In this document: piece by piece, positions 7,876 to 50,654 of the stretch
Position numbering within the stretch: the first letter of the stretch is position 1
Layout: the number at the start of each line of letters is the position of its first letter
Source: Actinoplanes sp. L3-i22
GTDB taxonomy: Bacteria; Actinomycetota; Actinomycetes; Mycobacteriales; Micromonosporaceae
Direction of reading: 5' to 3'
Assembly: GCF_019704555.1 (NCBI RefSeq)
Contig: NZ_AP024745.1
Span: 351,001 to 415,000, forward strand
Length of the DNA stretch: 64,000 nucleotides
The notes under the pieces: model-generated
Databases searched by the model: none
Told to the model about the DNA's origin: nothing
What the model saw: only the letters and a program-made list of their open reading frames with translations
Translations under genes and position numbers: made by a program

Positions 7876-8031
7876 GTTTTTTGAAACCGCAACCACCCTC
7901 GGACGCCGCCCTGGAGGGTCTCGCGTTTTGGGCGCCCCGGCGCCCTTGCGAGGCCCGGAAGGGTCCCCGCGGGAGCGACGATCAGTTATTGGCCGCAGCC
8001 GAGGCAATGAAGATCTTTGAAGTTGATCTTC
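7876..8031 (+). repeat. Dispersed structured repeat, copy A
   Basis: One of four copies of a repeat of about 140 bp in this window (others near 18.5, 45.6 and 50.6 kb). All four share GGGAGCGACGATCAGTTATT without change. Copy A contains the hairpin GGGCGCC-CC-GGCGCCC (7930-7945) and ends with a 7-bp inverted repeat GAAGATC/GATCTTC (8009-8015, 8025-8031). Its left end (TTTTTTGAAACCGCAACCACC region) most resembles copy C. It lies between two minus-strand genes, unlike the other copies. No transposase or clear terminal inverted repeat is visible. It reads open in one frame, but I treat that as incidental. Confidence 0.85.
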
Positions 8032-8065
8032 CAGGGGTGAACCGTGCGCTGCGGAGCTTGCGGTC

Positions 8066-8133
8066 GACGGCTGACGCCGGACGCTCATGCCCGCCGACCG
8101 ACGGCTGACGCGCGACGCCCATGCCCGCCGCCT
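8066..8133. repeat. Two tandem 34-bp units
   Basis: Two consecutive 34-bp units beginning GACGGCTGACGC and ending near CATGCCCGCCG. They are followed to about 8240 by degenerate GACGGC/GCTGACG words. The stretch separates repeat copy A from the 3' end of the MFS gene. Reading frames are short and of unlikely composition, so it is probably non-coding. Confidence 0.6.
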
Positions 8134-8270
8134 GCGGCTGACACTCGCCGCCCGTTGCTGACGGCCGTCGCTCGCAGCTCGCCGCTAGCCGCTCGATGGC
8201 TGATGGCTGACGCGCGACGGCAGACGGCAGACGGGACGGCAGAAGACGGGTGACGCCTGAAGGGTGGGGT

Positions 8271-9470
8271 TCAGGCGGTGGGGCGGGGGGCCGGCGCGGC
8301 GACCGTGAGGTGGTGGAGGCGGCGGGCCAGGGGGAGGGTGAGGATGACGCCGACGACCGGGATGAGGAAGGCGATCCGCAGGCCGATCGGGTCGGAGAGG
8401 GCGCCTAGGAGAACTGCTCCCAGGAGGGCGCCGCCGTAGTTGAACAGGTTCACCCGGGCGATCACCTCGTCGCTGCTCTCCGCGGCGGCTTCGCCGGCGG
8501 CGCTGAAGGCGAGGGGGACCAGGACGCCGACGCCGATGCCGGCGATGGCGAAGCCGGTGATCGCGGCGGGGATCGACGGGATCAGCACGACCAGGCCGCA
8601 GCCGACGCCACAGACCGCGAGCGAGCCGAGGGCCAGGACCACGCGGCCGGTGCGGGGCACCATGTGGTCCGCGACCATGCGGCTGACCAGCACGGCTGCC
8701 TGATAGGCGGCGTAGCCGAGCGGGGCGACGGCGAGCGAGACGCCGAGTACGGTCGCGGATCCCGCGGTGAGCGTGTCCTTCAGGTAGACCGAGCTCCACG
8801 TGCTGACCGCGGAGTCGACCAGGAACGCGGTGAAGATCAGCATGCCGCAGATCCAGACCACCCGCCGGACCGCGCGGCCGCCGGTCTCGTGGACCGCGCT
8901 GGAGCGTTCGGTGCGGCCCGGCTCGAAGGCCCGCCAGCCGGCCAGCCCGACCAGTACCGCGAACGCGGCTGCCGTGCCGACCGCGACCGAAGCACCGCTG
9001 CTGGCCAGGGAACCCGACATGAGCAGGGCGGCGACGATGGCGGCGGCGGTGTATGCGGCGAACAGTCGGCTCATCACGCTGCGGCCCAGCCGGGCCTGGA
9101 TCAGCACGCCCTGCATGCTCAGCGAGGCGTCCACGGTGCCCAGGCCGATCCCGTAGAACAGCAGGATCGTCACGAAGGCGACATTCGGGGTGCCGACCGT
9201 GGTTCCGGCCAGCCCGGCGCCGACCAGGAACAGGCCGCCGGCCAGCGCGTACCGGCTGCCCCAGCGCGCGGCGACCTGATCCGCGACGACTGAGCCGCCG
9301 GCCGCCGCCACGCACACCAGCAGCAGGATCGCCGAGACGAACGCGTCGCTCAGGCCCTGTCGCTCCTTGAACGCGGGCAGCGCGGTGACGACCGCGGCAT
9401 ACCCGAGCCCCTGGGCGGCGTAGCCGGCACCGATCAGGCGTGCCCGGGCCCCGGCGCTCATGTCGTTCAT
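8271..9470 (-). CDS. MFS transporter
   Basis: 399 residues from an ATG at 9470 (MNDMSAGARARLIG), chosen because CGAGG lies five bases before it; an alternative ATG is at 9461. Twelve hydrophobic segments fit the major facilitator fold, with a weak loop 2-3 motif (QVAARWGSRYA). No substrate-specific feature is recognised. It is monocistronic, with repeat copy A and a minisatellite beyond its 3' end. Confidence 0.85.
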   Translation of the reverse strand: MNDMSAGARARLIGAGYAAQGLGYAAVVTALPAFKERQGLSDAFVSAILLLVCVAAAGGSVVADQVAARWGSRYALAGGLFLVGAGLAGTTVGTPNVAFVTILLFYGIGLGTVDASLSMQGVLIQARLGRSVMSRLFAAYTAAAIVAALLMSGSLASSGASVAVGTAAAFAVLVGLAGWRAFEPGRTERSSAVHETGGRAVRRVVWICGMLIFTAFLVDSAVSTWSSVYLKDTLTAGSATVLGVSLAVAPLGYAAYQAAVLVSRMVADHMVPRTGRVVLALGSLAVCGVGCGLVVLIPSIPAAITGFAIAGIGVGVLVPLAFSAAGEAAAESSDEVIARVNLFNYGGALLGAVLLGALSDPIGLRIAFLIPVVGVILTLPLARRLHHLTVAAPAPRPTA

Positions 9471-10023
9471 GGTGCCTCGCTCAGCTTCCCGGCGAACGTC
9501 TTCTGGCACGGCCAGCGACCTTCTGCGCCTTTTGGGCTCCCGGATCACCGGCGCGCGGCCGATGCTCCAGGGACTCCTGGGGCGCTAGCGACGAAAGTCA
9601 CATGCTCGTTCAGCGCAGCATGCCGGGCTCGATCATCAACAGCAACAGATTCCTGTAAAAGAATTCACCTTCCTGATGGGCGTGCGTTTGCCTGGTCACC
9701 TTTGCTTCACCGCAAAGGCAGACAATTCGGGGGTACGGCGTGAGCTCCGCGCCCCAGGCTGTGACCTGCGTGCGAGTCACCCGGGTCGGTTGCCGCGTGC
9801 CGAGCGCCTGCGCCGCCGGCCAATCGCCGCGTCGTCAGATCGTGCGCCGCCACCCGTGCGGCTGGCCGCCGAGGCGGATGGGTGCGTCGGCGGGGTGGGA
9901 CTCCGGGGCTGGCCAGGGGCGGGCGGCGGTCTCGCGGGCGGGCAGCAGGCGCCTCGCGGTCGGGAGCCAGGCGCCGGCCGGGCGGGTGTCGACCGGGCGG
10001 GTCGGGCGCCTCGCAGGGTGGGG
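9471..10023. other. Intergenic stretch of 553 bp without a recognisable gene
   Basis: It lies upstream of the MFS gene and downstream of mqnB, both on the minus strand. It holds an A/T-richer patch at 9645-9665, a probable promoter zone. A perfect hairpin CCTTTGC/GCAAAGG (9699-9705, 9712-9718) has a 6-base loop but no T-run. The part nearest mqnB is G-rich. Open frames here look like compositional artefacts. Confidence 0.6.
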
Positions 10024-10656
10024 TCAGGGGAGGGACTGCAGGGCGGGGGCGGCGGCTCGCAGGGCGGCGAACGCGTCGGCCATCCGCCAGGCCGAGCGGT
10101 CCCGGGGGCCGATCAGGTTGGAGATGGTGCGCAGCTCGGCGAACGGCACGTCGGCTCCGGTGGCGGCGATCGCCACGCCGTAGCCCTCCATCGCCTCGGC
10201 CACCGCCTGCGGGAAGCGGGTCGCCAGGCGGTTCGTCGTCGCGGCCGTGCCGGTCACCGTGCTCAGCGTGAGCACGTCGCCGGGAATCGCGTGCGGGAGC
10301 GCCACCTGGAGGTGTTTGAGCAGCGTGGCGTCGGTTTCCAGGACGCTGCTGCCGAAGCCGAGCTCCTCGATCGGGAGGAAGCCGTCCGGGGATTCGGCGC
10401 CCAGGTCGGCGGCGATCGTCCGGGTGGCCAGGACGGTGCCGCCCACGTCGGCGCGGCCGGGGAAGCCGCCGGCGATGCCGACGCTGATCACGGCTCGGTA
10501 GTCGCGTCGGGCGAGCAGGCGTGCGGTTCCCGCGGCGGCGGCGGTCGGGCCGACCCCGACCGCCTCGACGACGACCAGGCCCGGGTCGAGTATCGGGCGT
10601 AGGGCGTCGGCCTCGGCGGTCACCGCGGTCACGACCAGCACGGGGTTTCGGGTCAC
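10024..10656 (-). CDS. mqnB: Futalosine hydrolase
   Basis: 210 residues of the nucleoside phosphorylase/5'-methylthioadenosine nucleosidase fold. It hydrolyses futalosine to hypoxanthine and dehypoxanthine futalosine, a step of the futalosine menaquinone route. Visible signatures are LVVTAVTAEADAL at the N-terminus, the glycine-rich ISVGIAGGFPGRADVG, and AEAMEGYGVA, the ligand-binding Glu region. The GTG start (10656-10654) overlaps the TGA of the upstream MFS gene (GTGA), so the two are co-translated. mqnD lies about 8 kb away in this window. Confidence 0.9.
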   Translation of the reverse strand: MTRNPVLVVTAVTAEADALRPILDPGLVVVEAVGVGPTAAAAGTARLLARRDYRAVISVGIAGGFPGRADVGGTVLATRTIAADLGAESPDGFLPIEELGFGSSVLETDATLLKHLQVALPHAIPGDVLTLSTVTGTAATTNRLATRFPQAVAEAMEGYGVAIAATGADVPFAELRTISNLIGPRDRSAWRMADAFAALRAAAPALQSLP

Positions 10657-12794
10657 GCGTCGCTGCCCTTCTCGGAGCCGGCGTTCCGTGCCGAGTCGGC
10701 GGAGGACGGGCGGTAGACGTGATACCCCGGCGGCGCCGGAGCCCGGTCGGCGTTCTCCTCGTCAGGCGCGGCACCCGCGCCGAACTGCCTGGTCGGCTCG
10801 CCGGCGGAAGCGCCGAACTGCCTGGTCGGCTCGCCCGCGGAGGCGCTGAACTGCCTGGTCGGCTCGCCGTCGGAGGTGGCTTCGGTGCTGAACTGCCTGG
10901 TCGGCTTCTCGGGGGCGGCGCTGGACGAGGCGGGCTTCTTCGCGGGCTTGCGCTTGCGGCGGCCCCACCAGCCGCGGCCGGTCGGCTCGTCGATCAGGGT
11001 CGGCTCGGTGGTGCGGTCACGGGTGCCCCGCGGCCGGGAGTCGGCGGGACGGCGCTGCGCGGGTGCGCTGTGGCCGGACTGATCAGGAACGGTCGGAGCG
11101 TCCGGCCAGGGGTCGGCAGCCTCGTAGAACAGGTCCTCATCGTCGTCGAGGCGCGCGGAGTCGGCCCGGCGCGCGGAGTCGGCCGGGTGTGCGGAGTCGG
11201 CCGGGTGTGCGGAGCCTGCCGAGCGCGCGGAGTCGGCCGAGCGCGCGGAGTCGGCCGGGTATGCGGAGTCGGCCGCGCGGGCGGCCTCCGGCCGGGGCGA
11301 ATCCGGTCGCGTGGCGGCGGGGCGGGACGGGTCGGCACGTGCCGGGTCGGGTGCGGCGGTGCGCGCGGGATCCGCGACTTCCGCGTCGGGGCTGGCTGAC
11401 GACGTACCGAAGGAGGGGTTTTCGCTGTTCGAATTGTCCGGTCGGCCGGCCAGGCGCTCATTGCGCAGGCGGGCCGCCGACCACCCGGCCCGGGCCGCGG
11501 CCGCCACCGCGAGCAGCGCGGCGAGTGCGACCCCCAGCCGCCCGGTGAGCGGGATCAGCCCGATGCCGCCGCCGGCGACCCAGGCCAGCATCAGGACCGT
11601 CTCCGAGTGGGCGAAGGCGGTCGCCCGGAGACGCTCCGGGACGCGTTCCTGGATGCTCGCGTCGACGGCGAGTTTCGCGATGCCGCTGAAGATGGCGGTG
11701 ACCAGGGCGAGCAGGGCGATCGTGGCCAGGTTGTAGAAGATCGTCGCGAGGATCGCCACGCCGGCGGTGATCACCAGGCCGCTGGACTGTAGCGCGAGCG
11801 GGCGGCGGATGCGCAGGCCGGTGCCGGCGGCGGTGGAGAGGAACGTGCCGACCACGAGCGCGCCGCCGACCACGCCGACCGCGGCGTTCTTGCCGAGATC
11901 CCAGGCGAGGATCGTGGTGTCCACGTCGCCGGCCATGATCGCGAAGGTCATGAAGAGCAGCAGGAAGCCGTAGAGCAGGCGCAGCGACGAGCTGCCGATC
12001 AGGGTGGCCACCACCAGCCGGCCGGAGAGCGGGCGGTCCGAGCCGCGGTCCAGGCCCAGCACGGTGCGCCAGGCGCGCGGCATCGACTCGGGCGGGTCGG
12101 AGTCGGCGCGCGGCGGCAGGCGCAGCGCGACGACCACGCCGGCGAAGAAGATGATGATCGCCACATAGAGCGGCCACTGTGGCCCGAAGCGGAAGGCGAG
12201 CAGGCCGATCGGCGCGACCACGGCGCCGGCGAACGTGCCGTAGACGCTGGCCCGCGCGCCCACCTGGGACAGGCCGACCCCGTCCGGGAGCAGGCGTGGC
12301 ACGGCCGCCGAGCGGGCCACCCCGTAGGCCCGGGACAGCGCCAGCATGCCGAACGCCGCCGGGTAGAGACCCCAGGTGTGCAGGTTGACGGACATCACGT
12401 AGGCGAGAAACGCCCGGCCCAGCATGGTCACCGCCAGGGCGTAGCGCCGGCCGTGCCGGAAGTGGTCGAGCAGCGGGCCGACCACCGGCGCCAGCAGGGC
12501 GAACGGGATCATCGTGATCAGCAGGTACAGCCCGACCTTGCTGCGCGCCTCGCCGAGCGGAACGCTGAAGATGGTGCCGGCCAGCCCGATCGCGATCAGC
12601 GCGTCACCGGCGCAGGAGACCGCGTGCAGGTCGAAGAGCCGGATCATGCCGATCTCGTTGGCGGCGCCACGCGCCCGGACGGTGCCGACCCGGCGGGTCG
12701 CCCAGGCGCCGCCGCGCACGGATCCACGCACCACCAGGCGTACGGCTTTGACGCCGGAGCCGACGGTGCGTCCGAGGGTAGGAAGCAGCGGCAT
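10653..12794 (-). CDS. MFS-type membrane protein with long repetitive disordered tail
   Basis: 713 residues. The first ~445 form an MFS-like 12-helix membrane domain. The last ~265 are low complexity: a Pro/Ala/Asp block with many hexads of the ADSARS type (about 11150-11290), a basic RKRKPAKKPA patch, then four PTRQF units (three as GEPTRQF), ending PGYHVYRPSSADSA and a short charged end. The ATG at 12794 is favoured by an AGGA eight bases upstream; an ATG nine bases earlier is possible. It is translationally coupled to mqnB downstream, which may hint at a quinone- or purine-related role; this is inference. It is divergent from the DUF3027 gene. Confidence 0.8.
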   Translation of the reverse strand: MPLLPTLGRTVGSGVKAVRLVVRGSVRGGAWATRRVGTVRARGAANEIGMIRLFDLHAVSCAGDALIAIGLAGTIFSVPLGEARSKVGLYLLITMIPFALLAPVVGPLLDHFRHGRRYALAVTMLGRAFLAYVMSVNLHTWGLYPAAFGMLALSRAYGVARSAAVPRLLPDGVGLSQVGARASVYGTFAGAVVAPIGLLAFRFGPQWPLYVAIIIFFAGVVVALRLPPRADSDPPESMPRAWRTVLGLDRGSDRPLSGRLVVATLIGSSSLRLLYGFLLLFMTFAIMAGDVDTTILAWDLGKNAAVGVVGGALVVGTFLSTAAGTGLRIRRPLALQSSGLVITAGVAILATIFYNLATIALLALVTAIFSGIAKLAVDASIQERVPERLRATAFAHSETVLMLAWVAGGGIGLIPLTGRLGVALAALLAVAAAARAGWSAARLRNERLAGRPDNSNSENPSFGTSSASPDAEVADPARTAAPDPARADPSRPAATRPDSPRPEAARAADSAYPADSARSADSARSAGSAHPADSAHPADSARRADSARLDDDEDLFYEAADPWPDAPTVPDQSGHSAPAQRRPADSRPRGTRDRTTEPTLIDEPTGRGWWGRRKRKPAKKPASSSAAPEKPTRQFSTEATSDGEPTRQFSASAGEPTRQFGASAGEPTRQFGAGAAPDEENADRAPAPPGYHVYRPSSADSARNAGSEKGSDA

Positions 12795-12896
12795 GGCAAC
12801 CATCCTGACTGATCCAGGCGACCTTCGTACGCTGCTGTCCACAGGTATGTGGGGAGTCGTTGTGACCAATGGGGCCCGGTAGGCAACAATGGGCGG

Positions 12897-13718
12897 GTGA
12901 CCTCCAGGACCACCACCCGCGCCGCCCGACTCGACCAGGTCTGTGCCGATGCCGTCGGGGTGGCCCGTGGCGCGATCACCGATGTGGACCCGGCAGACAT
13001 CGGTGAGCATTTGGAGGCGGTCGCCGAGGGCGACCGTGTCGTGACTCACTTCTTCGATTCCCACCTCGACGGCTACCGGGGCTGGCGCTGGGCGGTGACC
13101 GTGACCCGGGTGCCGCGCAGCCGGCACGTCACGATCTGCGAGACCGTGCTGCTGCCCGGGCCGGACGCGCTGCTCGCCCCCGGCTGGGTGCCGTGGAACG
13201 AGCGGGTCCAGCCCGGCGACCTGGGTGTCGGCGACCTGATGCCGACCGCGCCGGACGACGACCGCCTGACCCCCGGCTACGTGCTGAGCGACGACGCCGC
13301 GGTCGAGGCGGTCTCCTGGGAGCTCGGCCTGGGCCGCTCCCGGGTGATGTCCAAGGACGGCCGGATGGAGACCGCCCAGCGGTGGTACGACAGCGACGCC
13401 GGCCCGGAGGCGCCGATCTCGACCGCCGCCCCGCGCAACGCGCGCTGTGGGGCCTGCGGGTTCTACCTGCCGCTGGCCGGTTCGATGCGGCAGATGTTCG
13501 GGGTCTGCGGCAACCTCTACGCGCCGGACGACGGCCGCGCGGTCAGCGCCGATCACGGCTGCGGCGCACACTCGGAGGCGCTGCTGGCCACCGTCGAGCA
13601 CCCGGTCGACGAGCTGCCCACGGTCTACGACGACAGCGAGGTGGAGGCGGTGGCGGTCAGCCGCGGCCACGGCTCGGTCGAGTCAGGCGAGCCGGCCGAG
13701 GATTACGGCCACAGCTAA
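12897..13718 (+). CDS. DUF3027 family protein
   Basis: 273 residues from a GTG at 12897. It matches the actinobacterial DUF3027 family as I recall it (LDQVCADAVGVARGAI, HFFDSHLDGYRGWRWAVTV, CETVLLPG). A cysteine-rich segment, CGACGFYLPLAGS followed by two further Cys and a His near the C-terminus, looks like a possible zinc site. No signal peptide or membrane segment is present. Function is unknown. It is divergent from the MFS gene and its stop overlaps the convergent DUF2530 gene. Confidence 0.85.
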   Translation: MTSRTTTRAARLDQVCADAVGVARGAITDVDPADIGEHLEAVAEGDRVVTHFFDSHLDGYRGWRWAVTVTRVPRSRHVTICETVLLPGPDALLAPGWVPWNERVQPGDLGVGDLMPTAPDDDRLTPGYVLSDDAAVEAVSWELGLGRSRVMSKDGRMETAQRWYDSDAGPEAPISTAAPRNARCGACGFYLPLAGSMRQMFGVCGNLYAPDDGRAVSADHGCGAHSEALLATVEHPVDELPTVYDDSEVEAVAVSRGHGSVESGEPAEDYGHS

Positions 13719-14017
13719 GAGGCGCGGAACTCGGGGTGGGACAGCGCCCGGCGGCGCTTCCGGTTCCGATCGTGCACGATCATCGTGATCAGGCCGGGGA
13801 TCCCCACCAGGAACCCGGCCACGCTGGTGTCCAGCCATGAGTCGGGTGCGTCGGCGAGCAGGCAGACGATCGTGGCCACGACGAAGGCGCCCAGACCGGC
13901 GAGGGCGAACGGGACCATCGGCGGGTCCAGCGGTTCGACGCGTGGTTTGGTGCCGGTCACGACGGACAGGCCGGACGGCGGATCGTCAGCCCGGGCCGCG
14001 GGGGACAGGTCACTCAC
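13715..14017 (-). CDS. DUF2530 small membrane protein
   Basis: 100 residues with two hydrophobic segments (about 35-52 and 62-78) and a basic C-terminus (HDRNRKRRRALSHPEFRAS). The pattern agrees with DUF2530, an actinobacterial family of unknown function. GTG start. Its last codons overlap the 3' end of the convergent DUF3027 gene by 4 bases. Confidence 0.8.
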   Translation of the reverse strand: MSDLSPAARADDPPSGLSVVTGTKPRVEPLDPPMVPFALAGLGAFVVATIVCLLADAPDSWLDTSVAGFLVGIPGLITMIVHDRNRKRRRALSHPEFRAS

Positions 14018-14150
14018 TCCGTCAGGGTAAGGCCATTACGGAACGTCTCGGCGCAGGACGTGAGAGTTGTAACATCACTCTGCTTTTGCCGAGGTCAGCC
14101 GGGTCTGGGAACATGCGCGCGTCCTCAGTGTGCCACCCGAAAGGGCAAGC

Positions 14151-15575: not shown

Positions 15576-15583
15576 TCCACCGG

Positions 15584-15617
15584 CCGTCACCGGGTGCGCT
15601 AGCGTGCCCGGTGACGG
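15584..15617 (+). terminator. Hairpin terminator after purine permease gene
   Basis: Perfect 11-bp arms CCGTCACCGGG and CCCGGTGACGG around a 12-base loop, starting 9 bases after the stop codon. TTCTAA follows; there is no long T-run, common in GC-rich actinobacteria. Confidence 0.75.
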
Positions 15618-17892: not shown

Positions 17893-18432
17893 GTGGCGAT
17901 GGCGCAACTGGTCGTGATCTTGGCGGCGTGGACGACGCTGCTGGTCCTGCCGTGTGCCCGGGTCCTGCTCCGGCGCCCCGCTTCGCGCCGGCCGGCTTCC
18001 CCGGGCCACCTGCCCCGGCGACGTTCCTCGTTTCGCCGGGCGCCCGCTCCGGGTCGTCAGGCCCGCCGGGGCTCGGCTCAGGCGTCCTGGGCCCGGCGCC
18101 CCGGCCCGCCCGGCCGTGATCTCCGCCGGCTCGACCGTGAGCTGCCGGGTCTCGACCTGACCGCCCGGCTGGAGGCGCTCCCCACGGTCCCGATCGAGCA
18201 GTTGGCCTACGACCTCCGCCGCCTCGACCGGCAGCGCCGCAGCGGCCCGCTCCGCTCGTCGGAGGTGTGCCTGGCCGCGGTCATGCAGGCATATGACGCA
18301 CGGTTACGGCTCGCCTGCCGCTGCCTCGGCGTCGCCGAACACCTGCAACCGCTGAAAGGCGCCGACCGCGAGATCGAACGTTTCCGCGTCGAGACCCAAC
18401 TCGAGGCGGCCGGGCTCGCTCTCCGTGGCTAA
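17893..18432 (+). CDS. Hypothetical membrane-anchored protein
   Basis: 179 residues: an N-terminal hydrophobic helix (about 4-22, MAQLVVILAAWTTLLVLPC) followed by a strongly basic Pro/Arg region and a mostly helical C-terminal half with several Arg/Leu-rich amphipathic segments (DLRRLDRELPGLDLTARLEAL). No known domain recognised. The base composition is ordinary for the window. It ends directly at repeat copy B and converges with the RNA ligase gene. Confidence 0.65.
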   Translation: MAMAQLVVILAAWTTLLVLPCARVLLRRPASRRPASPGHLPRRRSSFRRAPAPGRQARRGSAQASWARRPGPPGRDLRRLDRELPGLDLTARLEALPTVPIEQLAYDLRRLDRQRRSGPLRSSEVCLAAVMQAYDARLRLACRCLGVAEHLQPLKGADREIERFRVETQLEAAGLALRG

Positions 18433-18571
18433 CCATCAAGATCAAATTCTTCATTGCCTCGGCTGCGGCCAATAACTGATCGTCGCTCCCGCGGGGACCC
18501 TTCCGGTCCTCGCAGGGCGCGGGGCGCCCAGAACGCGAGGCCCTACAGGGCGACGTCCGAGGGTGGTTGCG
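18433..18571 (-). repeat. Dispersed structured repeat, copy B
   Basis: Minus-strand copy of the repeat described at 7876. It fills the gap between the stop codon at 18430-18432 and the stop of the convergent RNA ligase gene (18585-18587). Its inner palindrome is GCCCT-GT-AGGGC, as in copy C. The GC-rich stem (GGGCGC/GCGCCC) and the invariant 20-mer are present. Confidence 0.85.
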
Positions 18572-43218: not shown

Positions 43219-44846
43219 TCGTCTTCCGGCTTGCCCTGGCGGGGCAGCAGGAAGGTCAGACCAAAAGCGGAGAAGAGCAAGAGCAGAGCGACCCCCGCCG
43301 TACGGACGGTGGTGTCCTCGAACCCCGCGCGAACCTGCTCCGCCGCGTAGGCCCCGAGCTCCGGGGACGCCGCGACCGGCGACTGGCAGGACGGCGGCAC
43401 CACGTCCGGGTTCTCCTCGGCGACCCGATCGGTCAGGCAGGCCCGCAGCCCGGCGACCACGGCCGGCGGGGTGCCGGCCGGCAGTGTCGCGGACGACGTG
43501 TCCACGTGGTGCCCGACCGCGCCCGGCAGCAGCGCGAAGAAGATCGTGCCCAGCACCGCGATCCCGAACGCCCCGCCGAGCTGCTGCACCGACGTGATCG
43601 CCCCGGACGCCGACCCGCTCTCCTCGTCGTCCACCCCGGCCAGCACGATGCCGAAGAACGGCGCCATCGCCAGGCCCATCCCGACGCCGAGCAGCAGCAT
43701 CGCCGGGATCAGGCGCCAGGGCGTGATGGCCGCCCCGGCCAGGTGCACGGTGCCGGCGAGGACCACGGTCCCGGCGATCATCACCAGGGTGCCGAGCTGG
43801 AGCAGCTTGCGGCCGAGCTTCTCGGCCAGGCCGGCGCCGGCCACGATGAAGCCGGCCACCATGCCGAGCGCCTGCGGCAGCGTGCTCAGGCCGGCCTTGA
43901 GCGGTGCATAGCCCAGCCCGATCTGCAGGTAGAAGGTGAAGATCAGGCCGGTGCCGATCAGCGACGCGAAGAACATCAGGCCCAGGGCCAGGCCACCGGT
44001 GAACGCCCGCTTGCGGAACAGGCTCGGGGTGACCAGCGGGTCGAGGCCACGCTTGTCCCGCCACCCCTCGTACGCCGCGAACAGCCCGAACGCGAGCACG
44101 CCGAGCGCCAGCATGCCGAACGTCCAGGCCGGCCAGCCCAACTCCCGGCCCTGCACCAGCGGGTAGAGCAGCAGGAACGCGCCGCCGGCGGCGAACAGCA
44201 CGCCGAGCCCGTCGAGCCGCGGCGCCCGTTCCAGGCGGGACTCGGGCAGGAACCGGAGCGCGCCGAACACCGCGAAGATGCCCAGCGGCAGGTTGATGAA
44301 GAAGATCACCCGCCAGCCGGCGCCGAAGTAGTCCGCGTCGACCAGCCAGCCGGCCAGGATCGGGCCGCCCACCGAGGAGAGGCCCATCACCGGCCCGAAC
44401 GCGCCGAACGCCTTGGCCCGCTCGGCCGGCCCGAACATCTCGCGCAGCATGCCCAGGCCCTGCGGCAGCATCAGCGCGCCGAACAGGCCCTGCACCGCGC
44501 GGGCGGCGACCAGGAAACCGGCCGCCGGGGCGAGCGCGCAGGCCAGCGACGCGAGGGTGAAGCCGGCCGCGCCGATCAGGAACATCCGCCGCCGGCCGTA
44601 GATGTCGCCCAGGCGGCCGCCGGTGAGCAGGCCGATGGCCATGGCCAGCGTGTACGCCGCGCCGAGCCACTGGATCAAGCTGTACGACCCACCGAGCTCG
44701 GACCGGATGACCGGGCCGGCGATCGTGGTGACCAGCGAGTCGAGCAGGTCCATCACCTCGACCGCGAGGATCACGAAGAGGGCGACCCACCGATAGCGGT
44801 AGGGCGCCACCTGTTGTTCTTGAACACTGTTCGTTGCCACGAACAC
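43206..44846 (-). CDS. MFS drug exporter, DHA2 (EmrB/QacA) family
   Basis: 546 residues and about 14 hydrophobic segments. Motifs GRLGDIYGRRRMF, ARAVQGLFGALMLPQGLGML and GPILAGWLVDADYFGAGWRVIFFINLPLG are typical of drug:H+ antiporters. Possible GTG starts are 44846, 44840 and one near the conserved APYRYRW; the operator sites overlap the first two. Divergent from a TetR gene with three operator copies between them, so it is almost surely TetR-repressed. Confidence 0.9.
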   Translation of the reverse strand: MFVATNSVQEQQVAPYRYRWVALFVILAVEVMDLLDSLVTTIAGPVIRSELGGSYSLIQWLGAAYTLAMAIGLLTGGRLGDIYGRRRMFLIGAAGFTLASLACALAPAAGFLVAARAVQGLFGALMLPQGLGMLREMFGPAERAKAFGAFGPVMGLSSVGGPILAGWLVDADYFGAGWRVIFFINLPLGIFAVFGALRFLPESRLERAPRLDGLGVLFAAGGAFLLLYPLVQGRELGWPAWTFGMLALGVLAFGLFAAYEGWRDKRGLDPLVTPSLFRKRAFTGGLALGLMFFASLIGTGLIFTFYLQIGLGYAPLKAGLSTLPQALGMVAGFIVAGAGLAEKLGRKLLQLGTLVMIAGTVVLAGTVHLAGAAITPWRLIPAMLLLGVGMGLAMAPFFGIVLAGVDDEESGSASGAITSVQQLGGAFGIAVLGTIFFALLPGAVGHHVDTSSATLPAGTPPAVVAGLRACLTDRVAEENPDVVPPSCQSPVAASPELGAYAAEQVRAGFEDTTVRTAGVALLLLFSAFGLTFLLPRQGKPEDDHLG

Positions 44847-44869
44847 TGTTTTATTAGCGAACAGCGTTC
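44822..44869. promoter_or_regulatory. Triple TetR operator between MFS and tetR genes
   Basis: Three 11-bp near-identical palindromes: GAACACTGTTC (44822-44832), GAACACTGTTT (44841-44851) and GAACAGCGTTC (44859-44869), spaced 18-19 bp apart so they fall near the same helical face in steps of about 1.8 turns. A perfect minus-strand -35 TTGACA (44876-44871) abuts the third site, so bound repressor would block the MFS promoter. Confidence 0.8.
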
Positions 44870-44891
44870 ATGTCAACTAAATTAGAGCGCG

Positions 44892-45623
44892 ATGAAGACC
44901 TCCCCCTGGCAACCGCTTCCGGACCGGCGACCCGGCCGGGTGCAGCTCGACCGCGAGCAGATCATCGACGCCGCCCTGCGGATCAGCGATGCGGAAGGCG
45001 TCGACGCGGTCAGCACGCGCCGGGTCGCCGCCGAGTTCGGCACCGGCCCGTCCAGCCTCTACGCCCACGTGTCCAACAAGGACGAACTGCTCCGGCTGAT
45101 GTTCGACCGGGTCTGTGGCGAGATCGAGCTGCCGCCGCAGGAGCCGGCGCGGTGGGCGGCGCAGGTCAAGCACCTGATGCTGGCGACGCACGTGATCCTT
45201 CGGGAGCACAACGACCTGGCCCGGGTCGCGCTCGCCTCGATCCCGAACGGCCCGAACGCGCTGCGGACCTCGGAGTGGATGTTCAGCCTGCTGATCAAGA
45301 GTGGGATGCCGCCGCGGTACAGCGCCTGGGCGATCGAGCGGATCTTCCTGTACGTCACCGCGGACGCCTACGAGAACTCGATCTGGCGTGCCCAGATGCG
45401 TCACCTGAAGCTGACCGAGGCGCAGGCGGAGCAGCACGTCAAGACGGAGCTGAAGGAGCACTTCGCGGAGCTGCCGGACGACCGGTTCCCGTATCTCCGG
45501 GCCCATCCGGACGCGATGACCTCGGGGACCGTCCAGGAGCGCTTCGAGTGGGGTCTCGACCTGCTGATCGCGGGGTTGACCGGGTTTTTGAAACCGCAAC
45601 CACCCGCGGACGTCGCCCTGTAG
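44892..45623 (+). CDS. TetR-family regulator of the divergent MFS exporter
   Basis: 243 residues. Helix-turn-helix RVQLDREQIIDAALRISDAEGVDAVSTRRVAAEFGTGPSSLYAHVSNKDEL; the C-terminal part resembles TetR_C_1. A TAAATT eight bases before the ATG may be the -10. The last 13 residues (FLKPQPPADVAL and the preceding Gly) are encoded by repeat copy C, so the native C-terminus appears to have been replaced. Operator sites lie just upstream. Confidence 0.9.
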   Translation: MKTSPWQPLPDRRPGRVQLDREQIIDAALRISDAEGVDAVSTRRVAAEFGTGPSSLYAHVSNKDELLRLMFDRVCGEIELPPQEPARWAAQVKHLMLATHVILREHNDLARVALASIPNGPNALRTSEWMFSLLIKSGMPPRYSAWAIERIFLYVTADAYENSIWRAQMRHLKLTEAQAEQHVKTELKEHFAELPDDRFPYLRAHPDAMTSGTVQERFEWGLDLLIAGLTGFLKPQPPADVAL

Positions 45624-45736
45624 GGCCTCGCGTTCTGGGCGCCCCGCGCCCTTGCGGGGCCCGGAAGGGTCCCCGCGGGAGCGACGATCAGTTATTGGCC
45701 GCAGCGTAGGCAATGAAGAACTTGAATTTGATCTTC
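45584..45736 (+). repeat. Dispersed structured repeat, copy C
   Basis: Plus-oriented copy. It starts inside the TetR coding region, supplies the TetR stop codon (45621-45623) through its GCCCTGTAGGGC palindrome, and ends at the stop codon of the convergent rhodanese gene (45735-45737). The invariant 20-mer and the GC-rich stem are present. Confidence 0.85.
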
Positions 45737-46133
45737 AGTCCAGGGTCGGCAGGCCGGCTTCCCGCCAGGCCTTGAAGCCGCCGGCCAGGTCGGTCGCCCG
45801 GTGCAGGCCGAGGTCCTGCAGCGCGGCCGCGGCCAGGCTGCTGGTGTAGCCCTCCTGGCAGGTGATGATCACCGCGAGGTCGTAGCTGTTCGCGAACGGC
45901 AGGCGGGCGTCGCTGCGCGGGTCGAGGCGCCACTCCAGCACGTTGCGCTCGATGATCAGCGCGCCCGGGATCTCGCCGTGCTCGGCGCGCTGGGCGGCCG
46001 GGCGGATGTCGATCAGGATCGCGCCGTCGCGGATCGCCGCGGCGGTCGCCAGGGGACCGAGCCGGTCGAGCCGGGCGCGGGCCTGGTCGAGGATCTCGCT
46101 GATGCTCCGGGCGCCGGGCGGAGCCGCGGTCAC
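45735..46133 (-). CDS. Rhodanese-like domain protein
   Basis: 132 residues, one rhodanese domain. AILIDIRPAAQRAEHGEIPGALIIERNVLEWRL and the active-site loop ITCQEGYTSSLAA with the catalytic Cys are visible. It handles sulfane sulfur. The GTG start overlaps the TGA of the cysteine dioxygenase gene (GTGA). The loop has Thr where many rhodaneses have Arg. Confidence 0.9.
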   Translation of the reverse strand: MTAAPPGARSISEILDQARARLDRLGPLATAAAIRDGAILIDIRPAAQRAEHGEIPGALIIERNVLEWRLDPRSDARLPFANSYDLAVIITCQEGYTSSLAAAALQDLGLHRATDLAGGFKAWREAGLPTLD

Positions 46134-46600
46134 CACTGCGAGCCGGCCTTGTCGACGGTGACGACCTCGAGGCCGGCCGGGCTCAGCCGGTACTTGGTCA
46201 TCACGGTCAGCGCGGGGCCGTAGACGTGCACGCTGATCGCCGGGTCGGTGCCACGGTTCACGATCCGGTGCACGTGGTGCTCGCCGAAGCGGCGGCCGGC
46301 GCCCTCGCCGAGATCGCGCGTGACGACGCGGGGCGACGCGGCCGGGCCGCCCACGGTGTCCTCGGTGAGCACGCCGCTGAAGACGTGGAACGCGCCCGCC
46401 GAGCCGCCGTGGTCGTGCAGCTCGGTCTGCTGCCCGGGGAGCCAGGTGAGCAGCCACACCTCGTAGTCGTCGGTGGCCGCCAGCCGGTGATACCACCGGT
46501 CCACCGGGTCGAACCGGGGCGGAACCACCCACCCTTCCGGCGCATCGGCGAATTGCCGGGCGATGGCGAGGTGGTCGAGTCGGAGGGCGGTGGCTGACAT
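46130..46600 (-). CDS. Cysteine dioxygenase (cupin)
   Basis: 156 residues. Iron-binding His are in TELHDHGGSAGAFHVFSG (HxH) and in GEHHVHRIVNRG. It oxidises cysteine to cysteine sulfinate, or a related thiol. AGGAG lies six bases before the ATG. Forms an operon with the rhodanese gene, linking cysteine oxidation to sulfane-sulfur handling. A 21-bp palindrome overlies its promoter. Confidence 0.85.
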   Translation of the reverse strand: MSATALRLDHLAIARQFADAPEGWVVPPRFDPVDRWYHRLAATDDYEVWLLTWLPGQQTELHDHGGSAGAFHVFSGVLTEDTVGGPAASPRVVTRDLGEGAGRRFGEHHVHRIVNRGTDPAISVHVYGPALTVMTKYRLSPAGLEVVTVDKAGSQW

Positions 46601-46626
46601 GCGTTCTCCTCGGCGAGGGCATATAT

Positions 46627-46647
46627 AACCTATCGGCAAGATAGGTT
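46627..46647. promoter_or_regulatory. 21-bp palindromic operator before the cysteine dioxygenase operon
   Basis: AACCTATC-GGCAA-GATAGGTT has perfect 8-bp arms. Immediately downstream on the minus strand is TATATA, a likely -10, so the palindrome sits between -35 and -10 and a bound protein would repress. The dyad style fits an Rrf2 or GntR type regulator, none of which is encoded nearby. Confidence 0.7.
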
Positions 46648-46699
46648 TTACCACAGAAGTGGATCGCGCGTGAAGCTTTCCCGGATCCGGCTCGTCCCC

Positions 46700-46731
46700 C
46701 GAAAGAGGCTTTACCGAGTTTGCCTCTTTCG
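46700..46731. other. Perfect 10-bp hairpin in the cysteine dioxygenase/neprosin intergenic region
   Basis: CGAAAGAGGC and GCCTCTTTCG flank a 12-base loop. It lies within the 347-bp gap 46601-46947 between divergent genes, so it is not an ordinary terminator of either. It could be an operator or a leader element of the neprosin-like gene. Nothing else is recognised in the gap. Confidence 0.5.
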
Positions 46732-46947
46732 TGGCGGAGTGCGAAAATCGGCTGTCCGCAATGACGTGACCACGCTGGGTTGAACAAAGTGGTCGTTGCG
46801 TCACCGGAATGGCCGATGGCCTCATCCGTTCCGGCAGAGTTCCTGGTCAGCTCGTCCCTAGGCAATTGAGAAAGCTATATGGTGAGGCGCGCCGCCGAAG
46901 CCTGGTGTGCACTCCCCTCACTCCCCCCGATGAACGAGGACGGACAC

Positions 46948-48051
46948 GTGTTGAAGTCACGCCGCGGTCTGCTCGCCGCCGGCCTCGCCGTCGCGGTGAT
47001 CGGTGCGATCGGAGTCGTCTCCACCCTCAACGCGGGGGCCGAGCAGATTCCGGGCGCGACCGCCGAAGCCTCCGCCGCGGCCGAGCCGGCCCTGCAGCCG
47101 CCGGCCGAGCTTCCGTGGGGCGCCAGGCCGCAGCGGGTCAAGCGCGGCAAGACCGGCACCAGCAGCAAGTCGCTCAAGGCGGCCGGGCTCAGCGTGGCCG
47201 GCGACACGAACCAGGCCGACGACGAGTTCGCGCCGAAGGGCCGCAGCAACAAGTCGACCTTCCTGCGGACCGCGAAGACCAACGTGGTCCCGCCGGAGCC
47301 GTCGGGCGTGCCGTCCCCGTCGGCGAGCAGCGACTCCGGGACAGTCAACTTCCTCTACAACGTCGGTGCGCAGTCGGCCGTCTCGGACGGCGCCTACGTC
47401 AACCTGACGGTCAACAAGCCGAAGCTCGCGAAAGAGGACTACCACACCCTCGCCGAGCTGGCCGTGCAGTCCGCGGACGGCAACCAGATCGTCGAGGTCG
47501 GGTGGAACGTCGACCGGGTGGTCAACGGTGACGACGACCCGCACCTGTTCGTCTACCACTGGGTGAACCGGCAGACGTCCTGCTACAACGGCTGCGGCTA
47601 CGTGCAGTACAGCAAGACCGTGTTCCCCGGCGACACCCTCGCGGTGGACCAGCAGCGGCGGTTCGGGATCCAGTACTTCAACGACGCCTGGTGGATCGCG
47701 TTCGACACCGAGTGGGTCGGCTACTTCCCGGCCAAGCTCTGGGGCGACGTGTCGTTCGCCAAGACCGGCCTGGTCCAGGTCTTCGGCGAGGTGGCCGCGT
47801 CCTCCGACAAGCCGTGCACGGAGATGGGCAACGGCAAGAAGTCCGACGACACCACGTCGGCCCGGATCGGCAGCGTGGCCTACCTGAACGGGCCGGACCC
47901 GAGCGTCACGGTGCGCAGCACCAGCGACTACTACTCGGTGAACCAGCTGAGTGCCCGGACCTTCCGGTACGGCGGGCCCGGCGCGTGCGGCACCACCACG
48001 CCGACGCCGACCCCGACGATCACCGCGAGCGCGACCACCGCGGCCAAGTAG
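46948..48051 (+). CDS. Neprosin-domain secreted protein
   Basis: 367 residues from a GTG at 46948 with GAGGA seven bases ahead. Signal peptide (KSRRGLLAAGLAVAVIGAIG), basic propeptide-like region, then a neprosin (DUF239) domain of about 220 residues: HTLAELAVQSADGNQIVEVGWNVD, HLFVYHWVNRQTSCYNGCGYVQ, QYFNDAWWIAFDTEWVGYFPAKLW. Plant neprosin is a glutamic prolyl endopeptidase; whether this member is a peptidase is unproven. A Thr/Pro tail ends the protein. Confidence 0.8.
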   Translation: MLKSRRGLLAAGLAVAVIGAIGVVSTLNAGAEQIPGATAEASAAAEPALQPPAELPWGARPQRVKRGKTGTSSKSLKAAGLSVAGDTNQADDEFAPKGRSNKSTFLRTAKTNVVPPEPSGVPSPSASSDSGTVNFLYNVGAQSAVSDGAYVNLTVNKPKLAKEDYHTLAELAVQSADGNQIVEVGWNVDRVVNGDDDPHLFVYHWVNRQTSCYNGCGYVQYSKTVFPGDTLAVDQQRRFGIQYFNDAWWIAFDTEWVGYFPAKLWGDVSFAKTGLVQVFGEVAASSDKPCTEMGNGKKSDDTTSARIGSVAYLNGPDPSVTVRSTSDYYSVNQLSARTFRYGGPGACGTTTPTPTPTITASATTAAK

Positions 48052-48067
48052 TAGATCCACTTCACGC

Positions 48068-48114
48068 AAACGTCGATGCCCGGTCCCTCGTAAGGGGCCG
48101 GGCATCGACGTTTT
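48068..48114 (+). terminator. Long-stem rho-independent terminator
   Basis: AAACGTCGATGCCCGG pairs with CCGGGCATCGACGTTT and the stem continues through T·G and CCCT/AGGG to a CGTA loop, about 21 bp in all, ending in TTTT. Confidence 0.9.
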
Positions 48115-48201
48115 CCGGTTTCTTGCCCCCACCGTGAACCGGATCGCATGCCACGATGTACATCCGGGTGGCCGGGCGGAACCCGAGGGGAGCTGGCGCC
48201 G

Positions 48202-48738
48202 ATGAAGCGACGGGTGAGCCCCGACGAGCAACTGATGACCGCGCTCTACACGGAACACTATGCAGTTCTGATCAACTTCGTCTCGAGATACGTCTCCGAT
48301 CGGCACAAGGCCGAGGACCTGGTCCAGGAGACGTTGTTACGGGCGTGGAAGCACATCGACCACCTCGACCCGGAACCCGGGCGAACCAGGTCGTACCTGC
48401 TCACCATCGCTCGTAACGTGGTGACCAACGCGTGGCGGGCGGAACAGCGCCGGCCCCGGCTGGTCTCCGACGAGACCGCGGTCAACTCCGTGCCGTCGGC
48501 GGACAATGTGGATCAAATGGTGGAGGGCTGGCTGGTCGCGGAAGCGCTGGAACGGCTGTCCCCGGAACATCGGGCGGTGATACAGGCGATGTACTACGAG
48601 GGGCAGAGCGTGGCTGACGCGGCGCGACGGCTCTCGGTGCCGGAGGGCACGGTGAAATCGCGCGCCTACTACGCGGTTCGCGCGCTCCGCGCCGTATTCG
48701 AGGAGATGGGCATGCTCCGGAGCGGGGGTGTGTCATGA
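48202..48738 (+). CDS. ECF RNA polymerase sigma factor (SigL/SigK-like)
   Basis: 178 residues. Region 2 is ALYTEHYAVLINFVSRYVSDRHKAEDLVQETLLRAWKHIDHLD, region 4 is LERLSPEHRAVIQAMYYEGQSVADAARRLSVPEGTVKSRAYYAVRAL. ATG start at 48202. The stop overlaps the anti-sigma ATG. A TGAACC (48135-48140) upstream could be a -35 for autoregulation. Confidence 0.9.
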   Translation: MKRRVSPDEQLMTALYTEHYAVLINFVSRYVSDRHKAEDLVQETLLRAWKHIDHLDPEPGRTRSYLLTIARNVVTNAWRAEQRRPRLVSDETAVNSVPSADNVDQMVEGWLVAEALERLSPEHRAVIQAMYYEGQSVADAARRLSVPEGTVKSRAYYAVRALRAVFEEMGMLRSGGVS

Positions 48739-49463
48739 GCGATCTCGACGAGCACGACAGCCTGCACCGTCTGTTGGGTGGCTATCTGCTGGGCGGGCTG
48801 GACGAGGCGGACACCGACAAGCTCGACGCGCACCTGCACGACTGCGCCGAGTGCCGGGCGGAACTGGACCGGCTCGCACCGGTACCGGAGATGCTGCAGC
48901 ACCTGCCGGATGCCCGGCACATGGGCGGCGACTTACCACCGCTCACGGTCGCGCCGACCGCGCGGCCGAGTCCGCAGAACATCGAGAGTCTGCTCGGCCG
49001 GATGCGGGCGGAGAAGACCAGGGAGACCCGGGTCAGCCGGACGCGCTGGCTGGTCGCGGCGTCGGTGGCGGTGATCGCGGCCGGGGCGATCGGCTACGGC
49101 GTGATCATCAACAACAACACCGGCGGCGACGGTACGACGCAGACCCCGCCCGTCGCGGCGCAGAGCGTCGTCGCGAACTTCCGGGCCGAGGCCGGCAGTG
49201 CCATGGGCGGTCAGGCGACCCTGGTCAAGAAGGCGTGGGGCGCCCAGGTCTCCCTGAACATGACCGGCATGTCGGGCAAGGCGCCGTTCTACTGCATCGT
49301 CAAACGCGCCGACGGCAAACAGGAACAGGCGGCGGTCTGGGGCGAGACGCCCGAGCACACCGCCAAGGTCGACGGGTCCAGCTCGTTCCCGGCGGCCGAC
49401 GTGAAGAGCATCGTGATCACCGACGCCGACGGAAAAGTGCTCGGCAGCGCGACGGTGACCTGA
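48735..49463 (+). CDS. Anti-sigma factor with zinc-finger and extracytoplasmic domain
   Basis: 242 residues. Zinc-binding HLHDCAEC (HxxxCxxC) in the N-terminal anti-sigma domain, a single transmembrane helix (about 105-123, WLVAASVAVIAAGAIGYGVII), and an RskA-like extracytoplasmic domain. It should hold the coupled ECF sigma factor at the membrane until a signal releases it. ATGA overlap with the sigma gene. Confidence 0.9.
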   Translation: MSDLDEHDSLHRLLGGYLLGGLDEADTDKLDAHLHDCAECRAELDRLAPVPEMLQHLPDARHMGGDLPPLTVAPTARPSPQNIESLLGRMRAEKTRETRVSRTRWLVAASVAVIAAGAIGYGVIINNNTGGDGTTQTPPVAAQSVVANFRAEAGSAMGGQATLVKKAWGAQVSLNMTGMSGKAPFYCIVKRADGKQEQAAVWGETPEHTAKVDGSSSFPAADVKSIVITDADGKVLGSATVT

Positions 49464-49470
49464 GCAGAAT

Positions 49471-49498
49471 CGGGGGCATGTCACCGCACATGCCCCCG
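49471..49498 (+). promoter_or_regulatory. Hairpin enclosing the start codon of the S66 peptidase gene
   Basis: CGGGGGCATG and CATGCCCCCG pair perfectly (10 bp) around an 8-base loop. The left arm contains the G-rich ribosome-binding region and the ATG at 49478; the right arm contains the alternative ATG at 49490. The structure begins 8 bases after the anti-sigma stop codon, so it may also attenuate readthrough from the sigma operon. Confidence 0.75.
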
Positions 49499-50521
49499 AA
49501 GCCGCGTCCCGGCGACCGGGTTGCCGTGCTCTCCCCGGCCTTCGCCGCGCCCGGCCTCTTCCCGGAGCGTCACGAGCAGGCGCTCCGCCGGATCCGCGAC
49601 GAGTTGGGGCTGGACCCGGTGGAGTTCCCGACCACCCGGCAGCTCGGCGCTCCCGCGGCCGACCGGGCCGCCGACCTGATGGCGGCCTGGGCCGACCCGA
49701 CGATCCGGGCGGTGTTCGCCACGATCGGCGGCGACGACCAGATCACCGTGCTGCCGCACCTCGACCCGGCGGTGTTCCGCGCCGACCCGAAGCCGTTCTT
49801 CGGGTTCTCGGACAACACCAACCTGCTGAACTGGCTGTGGGGGCACGGGCTCGGGGCCTACCACGGCGGGTCGACGATGATGCACCTCGCGCGCGGCGGC
49901 GGGATCCAGGCGGTGCACCTGGCCTCGCTGCGGGCCGCTCTCTTCGACGGCGGTGACCTGGTCATCGCGCCGGTCCCCGCGTTCAGCGAGGAGGAGACGG
50001 ACTGGGCTTCCGCTTCTGCGATGACGCCGCCTTTGGTGCCCAGCCCCGGCCACTTCTGGCACCTCGGTTCCCGATCAGAATCGGTCGTTACCGGGCCGAG
50101 CTGGGGCGGCAATCTGGAGATTCTGCACTGGAATCTGGCGGCTGATCGCTGGATCCGGCCGGTCGAGGACTATGCCGGGTGCGTGCTCCTGCTGGAGACG
50201 TCCGAGGAGATGCCGCCGGGCGAGGAGGTCTTCCGGATGCTCCGGAACTTCGGCGAGCGGGGGTTGTTGCGGCAGTTCCCGGCGGTTCTGGTCGGCACCG
50301 CCAAGGCGACGGTCTTCACCAGCCCGCGCCCGGTGGCGGAGCGCCGGCAGTACCGCGACGAGCAGCGGGAGGCGATCCTGCGGGCCTTCGCGGTCTACCA
50401 CCCGTCGGCGATGATCGTCTTCGGGGTCGATTTCGGTCACACCGATCCGCAGTATGTCCTCCCCTACGGCGGCCGGATCACGGTCGACGGGCCGGCCGAG
50501 AAGATCACCGCGCACTTCTAA
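49478..50521 (+). CDS. S66 LD-carboxypeptidase / MccF-like peptidase
   Basis: 347 residues. N-terminal PRPGDRVAVLSPAFAAPGLFPERHEQAL, the nucleophile Ser in FFGFSDNTNLLN, and the C-terminal catalytic Glu/His region with GVDFGHTDPQ follow the S66 layout. Members cleave L,D-peptide bonds in murein tripeptides or detoxify microcin-type peptide-nucleotides (MccF). No signal peptide, so it is cytosolic. The start codon is in a hairpin. Confidence 0.85.
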   Translation: MSPHMPPKPRPGDRVAVLSPAFAAPGLFPERHEQALRRIRDELGLDPVEFPTTRQLGAPAADRAADLMAAWADPTIRAVFATIGGDDQITVLPHLDPAVFRADPKPFFGFSDNTNLLNWLWGHGLGAYHGGSTMMHLARGGGIQAVHLASLRAALFDGGDLVIAPVPAFSEEETDWASASAMTPPLVPSPGHFWHLGSRSESVVTGPSWGGNLEILHWNLAADRWIRPVEDYAGCVLLLETSEEMPPGEEVFRMLRNFGERGLLRQFPAVLVGTAKATVFTSPRPVAERRQYRDEQREAILRAFAVYHPSAMIVFGVDFGHTDPQYVLPYGGRITVDGPAEKITAHF

Positions 50522-50522
50522 G

Positions 50523-50654
50523 TTCAAGATCTTCTTTGCCTCGGCTGCGGCCAATAACTGATCGTCGCTCCCGCGGGGACCCTTCCGGGCCTCGCAAGGG
50601 CGCGGGGCGCCCAGAACGCGAGACCCTCCAGGGCGACGTCCGAGGGTGGTTGCG
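50523..50654 (-). repeat. Dispersed structured repeat, copy D
   Basis: Minus-oriented copy that starts one base after the stop codon of the S66 peptidase gene. The invariant 20-mer, the GGGCGC/GCGCCC stem, and GCCCTGGAGGGT (as in copy A) are present. The convergent MFS gene ends 162 bp further right. Confidence 0.85.

Follow-up and report, generated by a model that had tools for sequence, protein, structure and literature searches.

A folded, one-sided repeat behind gene ends in Actinoplanes, probably a dispersing REP-like element

Four copies of an element of about 140 nt are present in a 64,000-nucleotide stretch of Actinoplanes sp. L3-i22 DNA (contig NZ_AP024745.1, positions 351,001 to 415,000; hereafter, the whole stretch is called the window). 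The reading we favor, with modest confidence, is that this element is an ancient, still-dispersing, non-autonomous and one-sided repeat of Actinoplanes and its relatives, similar to the repetitive extragenic palindromic (REP) sequences. The element folds, and the folding strand is the plus strand. In most copies examined, its tail sits just behind the stop codon with which the opposing gene ends, or behind the hairpin that follows that stop. Sites that are occupied in some species are empty in others, many sites recur across species, and the copies within a genome are on average more alike than copies at the same site in two genomes.

Results

Copies of the element in the window, the genome and the family

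An earlier note, based on the letters of the window, described four copies that share an invariant 20-mer. The search recovered this 20-mer exactly four times (for positions and strands see the cores in Table 1); the count stays at four when up to three mismatches are allowed, and 0.00 matches are expected from shuffled sequences. The window copies are alike over ca. 140-155 nt. Copies 2, 3 and 4 touch the stop codons of convergent genes, in agreement with the note, and the tail of copy 3 meets the stop codon of the right-hand gene at 45735-45737. The large number of copies predicted for the whole genome was also found: the source genome (label G000), a single contig of 12,014,766 bases, contains 144 copies with no more than two mismatches to the 20-mer (a reversed control gave 0), though the window, with 4 copies per 64 kb, is denser than the genome mean of ca. 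0.8 per 64 kb. The 20-mer is invariant among the window copies but not in the family, since other species carry other forms; in 37 of the genome copies it ends with C instead of T.

Among 120 genomes searched for the core pattern, 12 carry it, and all 12 belong to the same genus, Actinoplanes taken broadly. An exact 25-mer from the hairpin occurred in 117 stretches of named genomes, and all 80 among the matches listed are from Actinoplanes, Paractinoplanes or Symbioplanes. A structure model of the element (R2) matched 58 of the 67 genomes of the genus and, weakly, 10 of 287 other Micromonosporaceae genomes; the nine genus genomes without a match are G007, G008, G015, G028, G041, G043, G052, G060 and G064. 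The E-values of R2 and of its companion R1 are rough. Abundance ranges from a single match (in genomes G025 and G055) to 144, and the model's own per-genome match counts, some of which stand at at least 50 or at least 9, are not taken as copy numbers.

With laxer filters, 41 matches were obtained in other genera, in nine of those ten genomes and in one more, G132 (best E-value, 1.8e-8), with several matches per genome within one genus. Of 14 other-genus loci, 13 have GGGAGC and, after it, a sequence nearly matching the core, and 8 have an opposing stop codon -5 to +63 nt from the match end, as judged with a gene caller trained on 8,204 codons only. Since these loci are the best matches of the model, their likeness to the core is partly circular, which does not apply to their nearness to stop codons. 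With this reserve, we read the matches in other genera as real distant relatives.

Anatomy and fold

Read 5' to 3' on the plus strand, the element consists of a mini-hairpin (SCG..ACCAC..CGS), a CGTCG-like stretch, and a long hairpin in which a 4-nt bulge (GTTC) separates 16 pairs from 7 further ones, with a 4-nt GCCA-like loop at its tip. Downstream of the long hairpin are the conserved core CSGCGGGAGCGRCGRTC (also written GGGAGCGRCGRTC) and a segment that varies between species. The tail that follows consists of TTGATCTT-like or TTGATC-like units of variable number. The 3' end of the element is fixed and its 5' side is variable. The 5' mini-hairpin was also seen, alone or in tandem, upstream of complete elements (loci L013, L049, L055, L010 and L061), in some cases with a GGAAC..GTTCC-like unit, and tandemly doubled hairpins or tandem tail segments were present at L363 (in G035, behind dnaJ), L078, L217 and L223.

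The fold was assessed with an alignment, A3, of 28 loci from 26 genomes, in which 32 pairs are named. It was built from 30 loci by removing four (L136, L148 and L149, which have a different arm, and L132, which contains Ns) and adding two from the source genome, and it replaced a first, thin consensus structure of 18 pairs, whose alignment probably mixed two element types. In A3, 93.1% of cells are paired, compared with a mean of 79.0 for shuffled alignments and at most 43.4 for slid versions, and the covariation score, a check proposed in the earlier note, is 0.373 versus 0.133 for shuffled and at most 0.097 for slid alignments; the slid control favors the structure, because the structure was drawn from the same sequences. 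Both sides change at 16 pairs (shuffled mean, 11.5), and within the long helix this is true of 12 of 16 pairs. In 26 of the 28 rows the inner stem carries exactly one mismatch, which falls at one or the other of two positions. The small palindrome GCCCTGTAGGGC, thought earlier to be a conserved pairing, is not that pairing: its halves lie on the 5' side of the long hairpin (A3 columns 28-43, which pair with 66-81), and covariation supports the long stem. Another candidate helix, CGTCG/CGACG, is 90.7% paired, yet it has zero two-sided changes and 13 unpaired cells, and we do not claim it.

At the positions of the structure pairs, G-T combinations outnumber A-C combinations by 55 to 1 in A3, and by 134 to 10 in a second alignment, A4, of 86 rows aligned to the model (76 of them distinct over the core and hairpin, with 4 of these shared with A3). 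An element acting as double-stranded DNA would give G-T and A-C alike. We therefore conclude that the plus strand is the one that folds. One further pair is long-range and joins columns 89 and 125 of A3. Read by column, it is kept in 28 of 28 rows. Scored with a rule that picks the partner base, it is present without exception in 93 distinct elements (55 G-C and 38 C-G), with 7 of 100 left unscored; the 107 rows first scored correspond to these 93 distinct elements, and three rows had candidates of both kinds. Both forms of the pair coexist in four genomes.

Position relative to genes

Positions in the source genome were determined for a sample of 71 copies out of 144, which includes the first 30 encountered along the chromosome. 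Genes were called with a program of our own that overlooked at least one conserved gene (17893-18432), as a result of which copy 2 was scored as distant. Seventy copies had neighbors on both sides (the 71st has no left gene): 38 are between convergent genes, 20 are in a setting where both genes run against the element, 6 in one where both run along it, and 6 are between divergent genes. In 58 of the 70 copies the right-hand gene has its stop side turned toward the tail (p 2e-8 against one half). In 29 of these 58 the stop codon is within 15 nt of the tail end, in 20 the distance is 16-160 nt, and in 9 it is larger. Where the gap was 16-160 nt, a hairpin of at least 8 pairs was found between stop codon and tail in 17 of 20 cases; stems of at least 11 were present in 17 of the 20 gaps, versus a mean of 1.25 of 20 in shuffled gaps. 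Of the 20 copies opposed by both genes, 13 still have the stop codon no more than 51 nt away from the end of the core.

The excess between convergent genes, anticipated by the earlier note, was also observed in other species, for which 76 of 86 model matches were used and two further ones were lost at locus edges: convergent settings account for 30 of 74 elements, compared with 68 among 371 other gene pairs (p 9e-5), divergent ones for 5 of 74 versus 89 of 371 (p 5e-4), and a right-hand gene facing the element for 50 of 74 versus 189 of 371 (p 0.01).

Occupied and empty sites

The site of copy 4 is occupied in the source genome and in G031, with the element straight behind the stop codon (the G031 sequence is cut by the contig end), and in G066 an unbroken match runs into the element. 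The same two opposing genes are present without the element, and with a clean junction, in G051, G010, G014 and G035. At the site of copy 3, the source genome and G031 carry the element, whereas seven relatives that share the opposing gene lack it; G066 was not judged there, as its sequence stops ca. 20 bases past the stop codon. Copy 2 has a counterpart in G066 but none in G051, where ca. 24 bp separate the flanking matches, and, by eye, G045, G022 and G014 have other sequence in its place. Copy 1 was not seen, by eye, in the five relatives that are readable at its site; G031 has Ns there. At shared sites, the variable segment differs between species: CAGTTAT-GGCCGCAGC in the source genome versus CCGGACCACAGC or similar in G031 and G066.

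Mean likeness between copies was 0.873 within a genome, 0.809 for the same site in two genomes and 0.796 for different sites (50 pairs with enough data; loci L211-L290 were picked by means of the exact hairpin 25-mer, which raises their mutual likeness). Within-genome likeness exceeded same-site likeness in 38 of the 50 pairs, and same-site likeness exceeded different-site likeness in 26 of 50. Because copies on average resemble other copies of their genome more than their counterparts at the same site, copies appear to be replaced or homogenized inside each genome, with sites outlasting sequences. Some close relatives do show memory of a site (0.92 versus 0.69 in one pair, 0.93 versus 0.84 in another).

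The region 3' of dnaJ is a recurrent site. The strict core was found there in 14 of 30 genomes examined (of 67 dnaJ loci), in antisense orientation in 14 of 14; three more (G010, G051 and G066) have what by eye looks like a degenerate element, and 13 have none. In G025 and G055, the sole match of the model is the one behind dnaJ. The neighboring genes at these two loci, considered as candidates for a partner gene, were ordinary by eye.

Search for a mover and for known families

The Y1 transposase profile PF01797, which we take to represent the family of REP-associated tyrosine transposases (RAYTs), had 0 matches in the copy-rich genomes G000, G051, G035 and G022, and was present in 21 of the 67 genomes of the genus. 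The reverse transcriptase profile RVT_1 had no match in copy-rich G010 and G022, nor in G049, G050 and G058; a single weak match was found in G000. Many Actinoplanes genomes carry a group of reverse transcriptases of similar score (E-values of about 1e-18 to 1e-22, match starting near position 10), distinct from stronger RVTs whose match is full-length. Inspection of the alignment by eye, and of the empty sites of copy 4, showed neither terminal inverted repeats nor target duplication, with no formal search made. An autonomous partner was sought through recurrent neighbor genes: blastn among 70 source-genome loci returned mostly the element itself among the 60 longest of 121 off-centre rows, which also included longer shared stretches beyond the element at L021, L023, L031 and L035. 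A phage-borne element was considered as well, and viral contigs yielded two stretches with the core pattern, both of them coding, hairpin-free and read as chance; the search did not extend to the annotated collections of phages and plasmids.

The earlier note knew of no described family that matches, and none was recognized here: at the gathering score, no Rfam entry matched the element in the window or at 20 loci of other species, and copy 1, at E-values up to 5, gave a single match (E 1.9) that was under its gathering score. As far as titles and the openings of abstracts show, the papers retrieved contain no description of the family in Actinoplanes or Micromonosporaceae, and the passages on relevant terms of the SE50/110 genome paper (PMC3364876) do not mention it. 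Simple consensus scans of copies 3 and 4 revealed neither an intrinsic terminator (a GC-rich hairpin plus a U run, either strand) nor a σ70-like promoter, other promoter types lying outside the scan.

Other repeats and features near the copies

A second hairpin repeat, GGCTGG..CTCA/TGAG..CCAGCC, is often located directly 5' of the element in the source genome (for example, at L016, L023, L031 and L035), and the GGCTGG..CCAGCC repeat is also found in convergent gaps of G066, G031, G014 and G045, some of them element-free. Boxes similar to TGTGGATAAC, which we take to resemble DnaA boxes, were seen within ca. 110 nt 5' of the copies at L003, L010, L014, L032, L058 and L061; the window contains none. 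The two cyclic di-AMP (c-di-AMP) riboswitches of the window are arranged back to back on opposite strands (Table 1).

Table 1. Copies of the element and other features of the window (window coordinates)
Feature	Position	Strand	Remarks
Copy 1 of element	7876..8031	+	Genome-type core 7971-7990; tandem setting
Copy 2 of element	18433..18571	-	Core 18471-18490; flanked by convergent stops 18430-18432 and 18585
Copy 3 of element	45584..45736	+	Core 45677-45696; holds last codons and stop (45621-45623) of left gene
Copy 4 of element	50522..50654	-	Core 50553-50572; tail begins right behind stop 50519-50521
Long hairpin, copy 3	45616..45669	+	CCCT..GGGCCTCGC..GGGCGC / GCGCCC..GCGGGGCCC..AGGG; consensus structure, position on copy 3 inferred
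Tail, copy 3	45715..45735	+	GAAGAACTTGAATTTGATCTT; end meeting stop codon of opposing gene
c-di-AMP riboswitch RF00379	36502-36633	-	Rfam, 91.7 bits
c-di-AMP riboswitch RF00379	36842-36978	+	Rfam, 90.5 bits
Tandem repeat, 18 bp	11133-11302		Seven copies in register
Tandem repeat, ~33 bp	10755-10926		Four copies

Discussion

We infer that the element disperses from its clean empty sites and from copy numbers that range from one match to 144. The form that moves or is copied is probably the folded plus strand, which would work as RNA or as single-stranded DNA. A host-encoded factor recognizing the fold would spread the element and, through copying or gene conversion, may homogenize it; such a factor would not be a Y1 transposase of the RAYT type and probably not a reverse transcriptase. 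New copies would land, or survive, just 3' of genes, with the tail against an opposing stop codon or terminator hairpin. The suggestion in the earlier note that the element is like a REP or a miniature inverted-repeat transposable element (MITE) is the one of its three readings that best fits the way of life of the element, but membership of the RAYT-driven REPs is not supported, given the lack of a Y1 match in the source genome, and no terminal repeats were seen by eye.

Several results weigh against dispersal. Neither of the two kinds of mover sought, a Y1 transposase and a reverse transcriptase, was matched throughout the copy-rich genomes examined, and target duplication and excision were looked for only by reading the empty sites. 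Absence of the element in relatives could be loss. As many as 69 of 203 copies, drawn from up to 37 genomes and falling into 27 clusters, share their site, as marked by an orthologous right-hand gene, with a copy in another genome; assuming 9,000 genes per genome, we estimate that ca. 2 pairs would arise by chance, and paralogues may be among the pairs. Such recurrence of sites is not expected of mobile repeats alone, unless sites are inherited or insertion is site-specific. The excess of copies opposed by both neighboring genes over copies aligned with both, 20 to 6 in the source genome, is absent elsewhere (20 to 19). Nearness to stop codons is also partly forced, because element-free convergent genes are already close, with a median gap of 22 bp in the source genome's sample (75 pairs) and 4 bp in other species (68 pairs).

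A serious rival, though in our judgment a clearly less likely one, is that the element is a structured RNA with a function at the ends of transcripts. The plus strand would be made by read-through from the left gene or from an unrecognized promoter, and would block or shape convergent transcription or act on the mRNA of the opposing gene at its 3' end; selection would keep copies at given genes and gene conversion would homogenize them. Such a function would account for the strand-specific fold with its G-U wobble and a long-range pair without exception among the distinct elements scored, for the recurrence of the same genes, dnaJ above all, and for the position against opposing stop codons, which is also seen in other genera. 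It would not account for the variable presence of the element between related species or for its widely varying copy number. Further, the right-hand gene's start rather than its stop faces the element in 12 of the 70 source-genome copies, and copies 3 and 4 lack a σ70 promoter or U-tract terminator in a simple scan. The last result also bears on the bidirectional transcription-end element proposed earlier: the position fits, but a U-tract terminator was found on neither strand of these copies. The small-RNA reading proposed with it is possible.

A bolder form of the dispersal reading, to which we give a fairly low probability, treats the family as a persistent population of RNA-like elements inside genomes across Micromonosporaceae. 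The plus strand, folded as RNA, would guide how it is itself copied or repaired into the ends of genes, without RAYT or reverse transcriptase and by means of an enzyme, not yet described, that depends on RNA or single-stranded DNA. Another possibility is a retrotransposed element similar to a short interspersed nuclear element, in which a reverse transcriptase would copy a folded RNA, ending in a simple-repeat tail, at gene 3' ends. The variable number of tail units, the fixed 3' end and the variable 5' side speak for it, but RVT_1 is unmatched in five genomes, two of them copy-rich, and weakly matched once in G000, and we consider this explanation very improbable.

Slightly weaker still is an ordinary population of REPs, or of paired REPs (REPINs), driven by a RAYT. 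The many copies, the hairpins and the location at gene 3' ends agree with it, REPs being mostly at convergent 3' ends in the passages of PMC3733652 drawn on here. The element is, however, one-sided and several times the length of a REP, and the four copy-rich genomes without PF01797 contradict this explanation unless the enzyme lies outside that family. The weakest explanation, which we would all but dismiss, is an element acting as double-stranded DNA, either a MITE with terminal repeats or a binding site for a protein such as a nucleoid protein; it is in line with dispersed, intergenic copies, but the wobble-pair asymmetry between the strands is unexpected of it and terminal inverted repeats were not seen by eye.

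In the parts of PMC3116915 and PMC8049555 consulted, REP/REPIN-RAYT systems share with the element the many intergenic copies, a hairpin with compensatory changes and long persistence, and the element is also like REPs in its high copy number, intergenic location and nearness to gene 3' ends. A REP/REPIN unit is, however, a palindrome of 20-40 bp, usually in inverted pairs, whereas the Actinoplanes element combines a hairpin of 16 plus 7 pairs with a long non-palindromic core and a tail; it is ca. 140 nt long, asymmetric, actinobacterial, without a Y1 transposase match in the source genome, and not composed of two inverted REP units. We set it apart from REPs because of these differences in size, asymmetry, long-range pair and RAYT.

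The element can also be compared with a REP class tagged with CGTC, treated in PMC3733652, for which, in the passages drawn on, no dedicated transposase is known. These REPs are located between convergent or tandem genes near stop codons; the same source reports that convergent-gene REPs of two species are mostly within 20 bp of 3' ends. The element resembles this class in its proximity to stop codons, its convergent and tandem settings and the lack of a known dedicated transposase. The foot of its long hairpin (A3 columns 23-26) reads CGTC in 17 of 28 rows, GGTC in 7 and otherwise in 4, where the tag of the class is an unpaired CGTC at the foot of the stem. According to those passages, CGTC-tagged REPs have stems of 8-9 bp with AT at the first positions, loops of 4-5 nt and a CCA-like tail, are mostly head-to-head dimers, and are found in five phyla, Actinobacteria not among them. 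The stem of the Actinoplanes element, in contrast, has 16 pairs, a 4-nt bulge and 7 pairs, with a 4-nt loop. Untagged REP-like families of M. tuberculosis are also mentioned there.

Two other kinds of system have features in common with the element. In miniature elements derived from IS200/IS605, one folded strand is recognized and terminal inverted repeats are absent. A single folded strand is likewise at work here by our reading, but the Y1 transposase is unmatched in four copy-rich Actinoplanes genomes. The structured RNAs of Rfam have, like the element, a conserved and covarying fold, but it matches none of them at the gathering score.

REPINs were described in 2021, in the part of PMC8049555 consulted, as the only stably kept intragenomic sequence population in prokaryotes known to its authors. 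The element looks like a second population of this kind, one that is actinobacterial, larger, equipped with a long-range pair and present in several genomes without a RAYT. Two questions become testable with it: how repeats spread with no transposase at hand, and whether they have a role at gene ends. The covariance model can be used for annotating genomes of Actinoplanes, the genus to which the acarbose producer belongs.

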